Origin: an uncultured Candidatus Saccharibacteria bacterium
GTDB taxonomy: Bacteria > Patescibacteriota > Saccharimonadia > Saccharimonadales > Saccharimonadaceae
DNA length: 64,000 nt
Assembly (NCBI GenBank): GCA_947168825.1
Contig: CAMVNH010000003.1
Span: 1-64,000, forward strand
Direction of reading: 5' to 3'
Positions 18,782-54,664 of this stretch are shown here, one piece after another (within the stretch, counting starts at the first letter, position 1; each line of letters opens with the position of its first letter). Made by a program: the position numbers and the translations under genes. The notes under the pieces are model-generated. The model had not been told where the DNA came from. It was given only the letters and a program-made list of their open reading frames with translations, and ran no database searches.

Positions 18782-18810
18782 AAATATCCCCGAAAGGGGA
18801 TATTTTTTAT
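18782..18810 (+). terminator. Rho-independent terminator after L25
   Basis: AAATATCCCC-GAAA-GGGGATATTTTTT. Confidence 0.85.
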
Positions 18811-18833
18811 GCAGACTATGTTATAATCAAATT

Positions 18834-20639
18834 ATGAACGTGCTTATAGTTGGGAATATCTTTAAAGACGTCTATCTTCGGCTAGACGAGAGACTAAATA
18901 ATTTTGAAATCGACGAGCAGGGAACTCCTTGGCTAGATTTCGCTTTTAATGGTAGTAATTATAATTTTTTCCGTCGTTCTTCTATCTATGGCGGTGCGGC
19001 AATTGCCCTTGAAGTCATGAATCGTTTTGGTCATGATGCGCATATTGCTGGTGCTCGTCTCGGTTTCGTTGGCGGTGAGGTTATTCCGAACGACCAGATT
19101 GCTGCCGGCTACCGTTACATCCTTTGTCGTGGTAATAAGATCGCTTACCTCACATCCAACGATCGCAAAGACACTGTTTGGGCGAATCCCAACGAAGCAA
19201 TTGACTGGATCTATATTGATCATTCTGCTGGCGTCACTCCGGAACTAATTAGAGAGATTAAAAATTTCCTATCTATGTCTTCGCACACCCGCGTTGCCGC
19301 CTACGTTTCCGAGAATCTGACCGAAGCTGAGAAACCGCTTCTTGATATCGCAAGCATGCTTTTCGTAGATGGCAAACTTAGCCATGACATCAAGCGCCCT
19401 GGTTCCGTCTGCGAAATTTCTGATAGTGAAATTGTTCTTGGGGAAGTTACTCAAACCTGGCGGGTTGAACGTACTGATCTCATGACGCGCTCCACGACGC
19501 ACTCCATTATTGCCGCTTCAGTTTTCAGCTATCTTCTCTACGGTAAATCTGTCCGTGAGGCTCTGAAACTAGCTAAACTTAATGTTGAAAATTCCTCGCT
19601 TTCTGGCACAATCTCACTCGAAAAGCTCAAAAATCTAGCCAAAAACTATGATGACGTGGAGGCCGATATCAGTTTAGTTGCCGCTCAGCTGATGGCGACT
19701 GGCAAAGGTATTCTTGCTGCCGATGAATCTGGCGGTTCGATTCATAAGAAATTCGAACAGCTTAATATTCTAGATGATGAGGCGCACCGCCGCGATTACC
19801 GTAATATTCTCATTGGCACTCCAGAACTTGAGCGATATGTTAATGGTGTAATTTTATTCGATGAAACCACTAGGCAAATGTCCGACGATGGCCGTGACTT
19901 TGTCGCCTATCTCACTGCCCATGGTATTATACCAGGTATTAAAGTCGATCAAGGCCTGGTGAATTTTGCTGATTCTAACGAAAAGTACACCGAGGGTCTG
20001 GACGGCTTATCTAAGCGTTTGGATGACTATTACCAGCAGGGTTTGCGTTTTGCAAAATGGCGCGCCGCCTTCGAGATCACCAACGATACCCCTAGTGAAA
20101 TGGCCATCACCAAAAATGCTGAAATTTTAGCCAAGTATGCTAAGGCCTGCCAGCAAGCTAATATCGTTCCAATCGTTGAGCCGGAAGTTGTTTATGATGG
20201 CAATTATACTATTGAACAATGTGCCGATGTTACCAGTAAGATTCTCGACGCGCTGTTTGATGAACTCTCGAAGGCCAACGTCAGGCTTGACAGTTGTATT
20301 TTGAAATGTAACATGGTTCTCGCTGGTAAGCAGTATCCAATTCAAAGCACTGCCGAAGAAGTTGGTCGTGCCACTGCAAATATCCTCAAAACACATGTAC
20401 CAGAAACTCTAGCTGGTATCGTATTCTTGTCTGGCGGCCAAACCGTTGAACAAGCCACTGAAAATCTCCACGCGGTTCTCTTGAATGGCCCATTCCCGTG
20501 GCCGATCACTTTCTCATTTGCTCGTGCACTTCAGGATCCAGCACTTTTTGCTTGGAAAGGTGATAATGAAAATATCGACAAAGCCCGTGTCGCCTTTAAG
20601 GAACGTCTGATCGCCAATACCGACGCACTCAAGGTCTAA
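18834..20639 (+). CDS. Fusion: N-terminal PfkB-like carbohydrate kinase domain (probably degenerate) + C-terminal class I fructose-bisphosphate aldolase
   Basis: N-term SIYGGAAIALEVMNRFGHDAHIAGARLG (PfkB-like); C-term MATGKGILAADESGGSIHKKFEQL and GIIPGIKVDQGL (class I aldolase). Confidence 0.88.
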   Translation: MNVLIVGNIFKDVYLRLDERLNNFEIDEQGTPWLDFAFNGSNYNFFRRSSIYGGAAIALEVMNRFGHDAHIAGARLGFVGGEVIPNDQIAAGYRYILCRGNKIAYLTSNDRKDTVWANPNEAIDWIYIDHSAGVTPELIREIKNFLSMSSHTRVAAYVSENLTEAEKPLLDIASMLFVDGKLSHDIKRPGSVCEISDSEIVLGEVTQTWRVERTDLMTRSTTHSIIAASVFSYLLYGKSVREALKLAKLNVENSSLSGTISLEKLKNLAKNYDDVEADISLVAAQLMATGKGILAADESGGSIHKKFEQLNILDDEAHRRDYRNILIGTPELERYVNGVILFDETTRQMSDDGRDFVAYLTAHGIIPGIKVDQGLVNFADSNEKYTEGLDGLSKRLDDYYQQGLRFAKWRAAFEITNDTPSEMAITKNAEILAKYAKACQQANIVPIVEPEVVYDGNYTIEQCADVTSKILDALFDELSKANVRLDSCILKCNMVLAGKQYPIQSTAEEVGRATANILKTHVPETLAGIVFLSGGQTVEQATENLHAVLLNGPFPWPITFSFARALQDPALFAWKGDNENIDKARVAFKERLIANTDALKV

Positions 20640-20640
20640 A

Positions 20641-20668
20641 AAATAGCCCCTAAAGGGGCTATTTAATT
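20641..20668 (+). terminator. Rho-independent terminator
   Basis: AAATAGCCCC-TAAA-GGGGCTATTTAATTT. Confidence 0.8.
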
Positions 20669-53176: not shown

Positions 53177-54664
53177 ATGCGAGGTAGAGTGAAGGATAAT
53201 AAAAAAGTCAATTTTTGGCTTGCAGTAGCCATAACGATTGTCTTCGTCGTAGTCGGTGTTTTTCTAATTTTCCATCATGAACCATGGTGTGATGAAGCTA
53301 ATCCTTGGCAAATAGCCAAGATTATCAACTTCGGAAATCTTTTCGAGGTTACGAAATATGAACCACACTCCCCACTCTATCCTCTCTTTCTTGCTCCGTT
53401 CGCCCAAGCTGGCCTCCCATTCATCACTACGAATTTCCTGTCCTTAGCAATAGTCTCTTTAGCCGTATTTCTCTTGCTCTGGAAATCACCGTTTAAATGG
53501 TGGCAAAAAATCGCCATCATCTTATCAGCTGGCTTCTTCTACTATAACTCGGTCTTCGCGCGCGACTATAGCTTCATTGTCCTCGGTGTCGTCCTAGTCG
53601 GACTAACCTACGCTGGGCGCCACGAGCATCCAATACGTTATATTCTTTCGCTCGCTCTACTCTCTCAGTCTCATATCTTGGCCGGCGGATTTGTCGCCCT
53701 ACTCTCTATTGGATTCTTCGTCGAATGCATTAAAGCAAAGAAATTTACCCAGATGATTGTCCCGGCATTCATCCTGATAGGTGCCCTCGCACTCTTGTTG
53801 CCAGCGATATTCACGACCCTCCACAGCCACCAAATCATCACTCCTTCATTAAACGGTCAGTACCGTATGAACCTGACAGAGTACATGCGATCTTTCAATC
53901 TGGTCCTGTTCGGTCTAGCTATGCCGATTACCGAGCTCAGTCTCCTATTTATCATGATTTACTTCTTTGCACGCTACCCGAAAATTTTTCTCTACTCACT
54001 TTTCGGCTTCGGTTTTTATTTCTCAGTACTCTTTATCGCTTACAATACTACGATTATGCCACACAAGCCAGCCATCTTCATCCTTCTGATCACCTTAGCT
54101 GTCTGGCTTACTAAATCAGAGCAACGTCGAAAACGCAGTATCTTGGACCGTCTAACTGGCAAACTCGAACTGTATAAGCTCATTTCTTACTACATCCCAA
54201 TCGGCACTTTTTGTTTCGTGCCGATTATCCTCTCCGTACCACACACTATCTCCGAAGCTTACTATGATATGGACAGTCAATATAGCTATTCTAAGGAAGT
54301 ATCCGACGTTCTCAACTCGCTAGAGAATAATGCCGTAATCTTAGTTGGGTCCGATGATACCCTTACACCGGCGATTAGTTTTGTGCCATATCTAAAAGGA
54401 GACCGAATCATTTATGACGTCGTAGATGATAAACCATTTGATTATATGGTTTGGGACTCCGAAGCCAAGACCGTCGACGATAGCGAGTTGGATGCAACAA
54501 TCCTAAAATTCCAAGATCGCCCGACATATATCATCGCCAGATTCAACGCATGTGGCAACTCTATGGGCGAGGCCAATATCAAGGGGATCTGGAAAGAAAT
54601 AGGAACCTTCTCTCCACAGAACAAAGCCTACGACCCAGCAATCCGCATTTACAAAATCAACTAA
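53177..54664 (+). CDS. Polytopic membrane protein, glycosyltransferase (PMT/ArnT-like)
   Basis: FHHEPWCDEANPWQIAKI N-terminal motif and multiple TM; TGcTACAAT ends 7 nt before ATG. Confidence 0.7.
   Translation: MRGRVKDNKKVNFWLAVAITIVFVVVGVFLIFHHEPWCDEANPWQIAKIINFGNLFEVTKYEPHSPLYPLFLAPFAQAGLPFITTNFLSLAIVSLAVFLLLWKSPFKWWQKIAIILSAGFFYYNSVFARDYSFIVLGVVLVGLTYAGRHEHPIRYILSLALLSQSHILAGGFVALLSIGFFVECIKAKKFTQMIVPAFILIGALALLLPAIFTTLHSHQIITPSLNGQYRMNLTEYMRSFNLVLFGLAMPITELSLLFIMIYFFARYPKIFLYSLFGFGFYFSVLFIAYNTTIMPHKPAIFILLITLAVWLTKSEQRRKRSILDRLTGKLELYKLISYYIPIGTFCFVPIILSVPHTISEAYYDMDSQYSYSKEVSDVLNSLENNAVILVGSDDTLTPAISFVPYLKGDRIIYDVVDDKPFDYMVWDSEAKTVDDSELDATILKFQDRPTYIIARFNACGNSMGEANIKGIWKEIGTFSPQNKAYDPAIRIYKIN

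Follow-up and report, generated by a model that had tools for sequence, protein, structure and literature searches.

The 64,000-nucleotide stretch of Saccharibacteria DNA analysed here (the window) carries a gene at 18834..20639 (+ strand, ATG start, 601 amino acids) that joins a PfkB-like domain lacking its catalytic motifs to a class I fructose-bisphosphate aldolase. We consider it fairly probable that the N-terminal domain is a dead pseudokinase derived from PfkB_B, one of two kinases of an ancestral operon, that it was fused to the aldolase while still intact, and that it has been retained for ligand binding and/or oligomerization that tunes the aldolase. The open reading frame and both motifs quoted for it in a preliminary description, made from the sequence alone, were exactly as described.

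The gene has the gene for ribosomal protein L25 as its upstream neighbour and, on the opposite strand, that for ribosomal protein L27 (identified from sequence) as its downstream neighbour. A terminator-like hairpin, CCCCGAAAGGGG with a T run (18788..18808, +), lies 3' of the L25 gene; a TATAAT sequence resembling a -10 box (18822..18827, +) ends 6 bases 5' of the ATG; and a further terminator-like hairpin, AATAGCCCC-TAAA-GGGGCTATT (20642..20664, +), stands immediately 3' of the stop codon. Because of the hairpins on either side and the placement of the TATAAT box, the fusion gene is probably a separate transcription unit, and its mRNA is possibly leaderless. An assembly artefact or chimera was ruled out by the presence of the fusion in more than 100 independent genomes and by equal GC3 across its parts (0.42 and 0.43). 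Elsewhere in the window, a 495-amino acid protein without a Pfam match is encoded at 53177-54664 (+), directly 3' of a gene for an SBP_bac_5 solute-binding protein.

The N-terminal domain has a PfkB fold and has lost its kinase motifs

The N-terminal 279 residues gave no match to PF00294 (E<=1) or any other Pfam family, nothing meaningful in NCBIfam and no match to the PDB by sequence, so the PfkB identity of the domain was taken from profile-profile comparison and structure. Using hhalign, a profile of 21 N-terminal domains aligned with intact PfkB_B from the same bacterial family with an E value of 1e-20 over 253 columns. The AlphaFold model of the domain, built from 62 sequences, had a mean pLDDT of 92.5 and a pTM of 0.91, and all 50 of its best Foldseek matches in the PDB were ribokinase-fold sugar kinases, among them ribokinases, ketohexokinases and HldA (E 1e-8 to 1e-10, TM about 0.5-0.64). 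Residues 1-277 (18834..19664, +) are therefore confidently predicted to adopt the ribokinase/PfkB fold, as had been proposed from the sequence. In the full-length model, a single unbroken predicted helix, residues 262-286 (19617..19691, +), links both domains; the pTM of this model was 0.71, and how the domains are positioned towards each other is less secure than the structure of each one.

The site of the DTxGAGD motif and the helix that follows it correspond to residues 215-239 (DLMTRSTTHSIIAASVFSYLLYGKS, 19476..19550, +), in which S224 (19503-19505, +) falls at the catalytic Asp column of a joint alignment with intact kinases. This column held Ser in 41, Leu in 20, Gln in 3, Ile in 2 and Asn in 1 of the 67 degenerate sequences and Asp in none, so that the loss of GAGD and its Asp, first noticed in a single protein, extends to every relative aligned. 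No GxGD was found anywhere in the 67 sequences, and in 64 of them residues 216-228 contain no Asp at all. Also gone are the Asn of GGxxxN, the NxxE Asn and the TDG loop, with no conserved counterpart of N65, N206 or T239-D240-G241 of the intact kinases, and stretches of the nucleotide half have been deleted relative to these enzymes. The domain retains the first sugar Asp (D12), one GG, Y95 and the A247/N250 helix; newly invariant are K11, R48, R94, D129 and T218, among others, and the new invariant charged residues are placed on the sugar side. With the PfkB/ribokinase family (PF00294) it thus has in common the fold, D12, one GG and the A..N helix, and it descends from a member that sister lineages still have in intact form; unlike that family, it escapes Pfam, has lost the GGxxxN Asn, NxxE, TDG and GAGD motifs, and is predicted to be incapable of phosphorylation. 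We infer that the domain is without kinase activity, and the term pseudokinase, one of the readings offered in the preliminary description, fits a PfkB fold whose catalytic motif has been lost. Within genus g9 (L021, L022, L024 and L025) the fusion is shortened to 565-574 amino acids and its N-terminal domain is reduced further.

The aldolase part is intact by sequence

The C-terminal domain, residues 281-598 (19674..20627, +), matched PF00274 with an E value of 9e-112 and 374 bits (cut-off 22) and the NF033379 equivalog with 411 bits (cut-off 250), and is 41-47% identical to solved aldolases. The active-site residues D297, K370, K408, R410, E449, K491, S533 and R564 are all retained, the Schiff base being K491 (20304-20306, +). 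K491, K370, K408 and E449 were present in 74 of 74 sequences and R410, S533 and R564 in 73 of 74; D297 was invariant across alignment A6 (58 sequences). By family profile and active site, this part is an intact class I fructose-bisphosphate aldolase, as had been claimed for it. The full domain and all active-site residues are common to the fusion and to the class I aldolase family; members sampled elsewhere in the phylum are unfused proteins of about 330-405 amino acids, whereas the fusion bears the N-terminal pseudokinase. Searches including PF00274, PF01116 and PF01791 found no aldolase in the window's genome besides the fusion. Some fusions (L098, L103, L105, L107 and L115) have a changed ADES motif, e.g. 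GVLAIDES, GILAADED or GILAIDER, together with single replacements in active-site positions that do not vary in the other sequences, and retain the Schiff-base Lys. In G093, a second class I aldolase copy (G093:C7:99729-100724) is broken by several stop codons, and an intact fusion copy lies elsewhere in the same genome.

A scan of a genome collection found 150 relatives of the fusion in named genomes; the fusion, whose conservation the preliminary description had proposed to check, is conserved in relatives. Among the best 80 of these 150 relatives, 79 came from Candidatus Saccharibacteria, many of the 80 were from herbivore guts (goat, sheep, yak, horse and cattle), and none had GAGD. Some part of the fusion protein was matched in 60 of 151 sampled genomes of the window's own family.

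Origin of the fusion and loss of the catalytic motifs

Most genomes of the family carry all or part of the operon gapdh-rpiB-rpe-tktN-tktC-fbaII-pfkB_A-(150-170 amino acid domain)-pfkB_B-LOG-uvrB (L192 among others). The 150-170 amino acid domain is conserved, has no Pfam match and precedes PfkB_B either as a gene of its own (L192:5869-6387 (+), L193:4731-5186 (-), L196:3073-3522 (-)) or fused to it, as the N-terminal approximately 165 amino acids of the PfkB_B proteins in L032, L034 and L043. By profile comparison, the ancestor of the N-terminal domain is PfkB_B, the second PfkB of this glycolytic and pentose-phosphate operon; an origin from PfkB_A was rejected on its weaker hhalign match (7.6e-8 vs 1e-20 for PfkB_B).

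Four genomes of genera g31 and g35 (G031, G035, G079 and G100) encode a class I aldolase fused to an intact PfkB with GAGD. G113, which has a class I aldolase fusion and two PfkB matches, was counted as a fifth intact-fusion genome, the kinase motif having been read in the other four. In the two intact-fusion operons that were read (G035 and G031), pfkB_B is absent and its 150-amino acid companion is left as an orphan gene.

An unrooted aldolase tree left the order of events open, which was settled by rooting with unfused aldolases of other lineages. In the rooted tree all fusion aldolases formed one clade (100/98), within which the intact-kinase fusions formed one basal clade (100/98) and the dead-kinase fusions lay on the opposite side (87/85), where an unfused, long-branch aldolase (L047) also grouped. 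In the tree of N-terminal domains, the dead kinases were a single clade (100/100) whose stem, at 4.95 changes per site, is very long. The simplest reading of these trees is one fusion event followed by one loss of catalysis.

Nested among the fusions is genus g40 (G040 and G082), in which the dead kinase occurs without an aldolase. The lone gene of G040 lies where G002 and G010 have their fusions, in an ABC transporter-X-uvrC locus, and searches for PF00274, PF01116 and PF01791 aldolases found none in G040 or in G082 (86% complete). The two lone pseudokinases are 77% identical (dN 0.18, dS about 2). In g40 the aldolase part was deleted and the dead kinase persists alone, which argues that the role of the pseudokinase is separable from the aldolase.

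Metabolic setting

The preliminary description had also considered a diverged phosphofructokinase, in view of the reported lack of this enzyme in CPR genomes. This reading was not supported: the domain retains none of the four PfkB hallmark motifs, and the look for PfkA or PfkB elsewhere in the genome that the preliminary description had called for returned an intact PfkB paralogue, PfkB_A, with DTTGAGDAF, on another contig (G000:C1:76240-77022). This candidate equally refutes the notion that the genome lacks any phosphofructokinase. Nor was compensation for a missing enzyme upheld: the domain descends from a second PfkB, whose catalytic motifs were lost in a lineage that has no transketolase or class II aldolase either. 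PfkA (PF00365) was found in 4 of 151 genomes and in none of the 104 near-complete ones. Of the family operon, the window's genome retains only gapdh-rpiB-rpe-pfkB_A-LOG-uvrB; it also encodes phosphoglucose isomerase (PGI; 537 bits).

Pathway genes were assessed by family searches. Class II aldolase was found in none of the 25 dead-fusion genomes tabulated and in all five intact-fusion genomes (G113 included). In a panel of 35 genomes, transketolase was present in 0 of 20 dead-fusion genomes vs 15 of 15 others, and PGI (PF00342) in 18 of 20 (the exceptions being G010 and G067) vs 0 of 15; the genomes are not independent, and all these counts trace few, perhaps single, evolutionary events. No match to a true transaldolase (PF00923) was obtained in 35 family genomes, including 15 with both transketolase and class II aldolase. 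One genome, G120, at first seemed to combine a dead fusion with a lack of PfkB_A, but GAPDH is missing from it too, hence the operon probably falls in an assembly gap.

For CPR bacteria, a pentose-phosphate detour is the usual explanation. Searches of the 20 dead-fusion genomes found no transketolase and no transaldolase, so this detour is unavailable to them, which points to PfkB_A as the phosphofructokinase. Fructose 6-phosphate (F6P) is probably phosphorylated by this separate, intact PfkB_A, likely the phosphofructokinase. Saccharibacteria have been described as lacking phosphofructokinase (PMC8386444). That no transaldolase match was obtained even where transketolase and class II aldolase are both present (15 genomes) suggests that the pentose pathway of Saccharibacteria is of the sedoheptulose-bisphosphate type. 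A sedoheptulose-bisphosphate route has been proposed for transaldolase-free clostridia (PMC4102724), and a PPi-dependent phosphofructokinase with S7P activity has been reported (PMC10339645). The ancestral set of Saccharibacteria genes (transketolase, aldolase, two PfkBs and no transaldolase) resembles the clostridial route and, given this resemblance, it is a reasonable guess that S7P was the substrate of PfkB_B and that this kinase was no longer needed once transketolase was lost.

Selection on the dead domain and its possible role

The ratio dN/dS (Nei-Gojobori; 13 pairs from 6 independent clusters) was 0.01-0.08 for the N-terminal domain vs 0.014-0.066 for the aldolase; the domain is under purifying selection and is not decaying. 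Residues 7-54 (18852..18995, +), predicted by likeness to the ribokinase fold to be the beta-lid and sugar side, include the invariants G7, N8, K11, D12, Y14, L15, E25, W33, F38, R48 and G54 (alignment A5, 62 sequences), and residues 92-106 (19107..19151, +) are a second predicted pair of lid strands in which R94 and Y95 are invariant (alignment and AlphaFold model). The first 110 residues contain 13 of 17 invariant positions of the N-terminal domain; in intact kinases the equivalent stretch contains 17 of 66 (Fisher p 0.0003, a descriptive value that ignores kinship and compares sets differing in diversity). Conservation has moved toward the predicted lid and sugar half.

In the history that we favour, an intact PfkB_B left the operon and fused once to the class I aldolase, and the nucleotide and catalytic motifs were then lost in an ancestor of lineages that have neither transketolase nor class II aldolase. 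The dead domain would have been retained for a non-catalytic use of its predicted lid and sugar-binding side. As to what the domain binds and how it acts on the aldolase, we infer that it would most likely bind a sugar phosphate and/or form a lid-to-lid dimer of the PfkB kind, and that the linking helix would carry its influence to the assembly or activity of the aldolase. Ligand binding or oligomerization that tunes the aldolase is the simplest account of the strong selection, the conservation of the lid and sugar side and the continuous predicted helix, although conservation of the lid could come from folding alone and the existence of lone pseudokinases in g40 means that the role need not involve the aldolase. 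It is possible, as a tentative suggestion, that the dead kinase is a sugar-phosphate sensor whose retained sugar pocket, with its new invariant Lys/Arg residues, binds F6P or FBP and allosterically gates the sole aldolase, and which in one genus has become a freed regulator acting on a different target.

The main rival to ligand binding and oligomerization is a scaffold, in which the lid interface of the dead domain would pair with PfkB_A and so tether phosphofructokinase to aldolase as a two-enzyme channel. The ancestors of both PfkB domains were adjacent genes in one operon, the conserved residues cluster on the predicted lid side, and nearly every dead-fusion genome still has PfkB_A, the apparent exception being G120, where GAPDH is also missing and the operon was probably not assembled. 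However, PfkB_A is also retained in genomes without the dead domain, which makes its presence uninformative, and the assemblies of G107 and G092 are incomplete; we regard a tether as rather unlikely. That the dead domain is a passive structural part, on which the aldolase now depends for folding or oligomerization only, we hold to be improbable: the continuous predicted helix agrees with it, and any dependence would be locked in with the fusion as the only aldolase found in the window's genome, but in g40 (G040 and G082) the dead domain persists, with slow amino acid change, without a detectable aldolase, and clear new invariants arose on the sugar side. A still active kinase with an active site rebuilt around K11, R48, R94, D129 and T218 would agree with the sugar-side location of the new charged residues and is nevertheless highly improbable, since Asp is absent from residues 216-228 in 64 of 67 sequences, the nucleotide motifs have disappeared along with stretches of the nucleotide half, and the same genome encodes an intact PfkB. 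Ordinary decay of a functionless kinase relic, for which the loss of every catalytic motif and the shorter fusions of g9 (565-574 amino acids) might speak, can be dismissed on a dN/dS (0.01-0.08) as low as that of the aldolase, a compact and confident model and conservation in more than 100 genomes.

Relation to known systems

Pseudoenzymes are usually met as end products. The relatives of the fusion preserve the steps, from two operon kinases through an intact kinase-aldolase fusion and a dead kinase-aldolase fusion to a dead kinase alone, and provide a natural experiment in the conversion of an enzyme into a non-catalytic accessory, in which catalytic loss coincides with a gene set devoid of transketolase and class II aldolase. 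The series also bears on upper glycolysis in CPR bacteria without PfkA.

In the open-access literature searched, no description was found of a PfkB-fructose-bisphosphate aldolase fusion in Saccharibacteria or of its dead-kinase state. What is known are kinase-aldolase fusions with other substrates and pfkB-type components of complexes; what appears to be new is the fusion of a dead kinase to fructose-bisphosphate aldolase in Saccharibacteria. Judged by their model names, NF047869 (5-dehydro-2-deoxygluconokinase/aldolase) and NF041633 (KHG/KDPG aldolase-sugar kinase) combine a PfkB-type kinase with an aldolase in a single chain, like the intact Saccharibacteria fusion L045. The fusion protein matched neither model; unlike the dead-kinase fusion, these proteins have other substrates, aldolases of other families and kinases annotated as active. 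The plant fructokinase-like proteins FLN1 and FLN2 are pfkB-type components of a larger complex (PMC3409070); unlike the Saccharibacteria fusion, they belong to the plastid RNA polymerase complex, are not fused to a glycolytic enzyme and are of independent origin. In Nanosynbacter lyticus, the "ribokinase" TM7x_02415 adjoins the aldolase TM7x_02420 and has been proposed as the missing phosphofructokinase of Saccharibacteria (PMC12815258). TM7x_02415 is likewise a pfkB-type gene in a fructose-bisphosphate aldolase operon, but encodes a separate, presumably active kinase rather than a fused, dead one. Set beside the fusion by description rather than by sequence, the TM7x_02415/TM7x_02420 pair looks like the operon stage that preceded the fusion.
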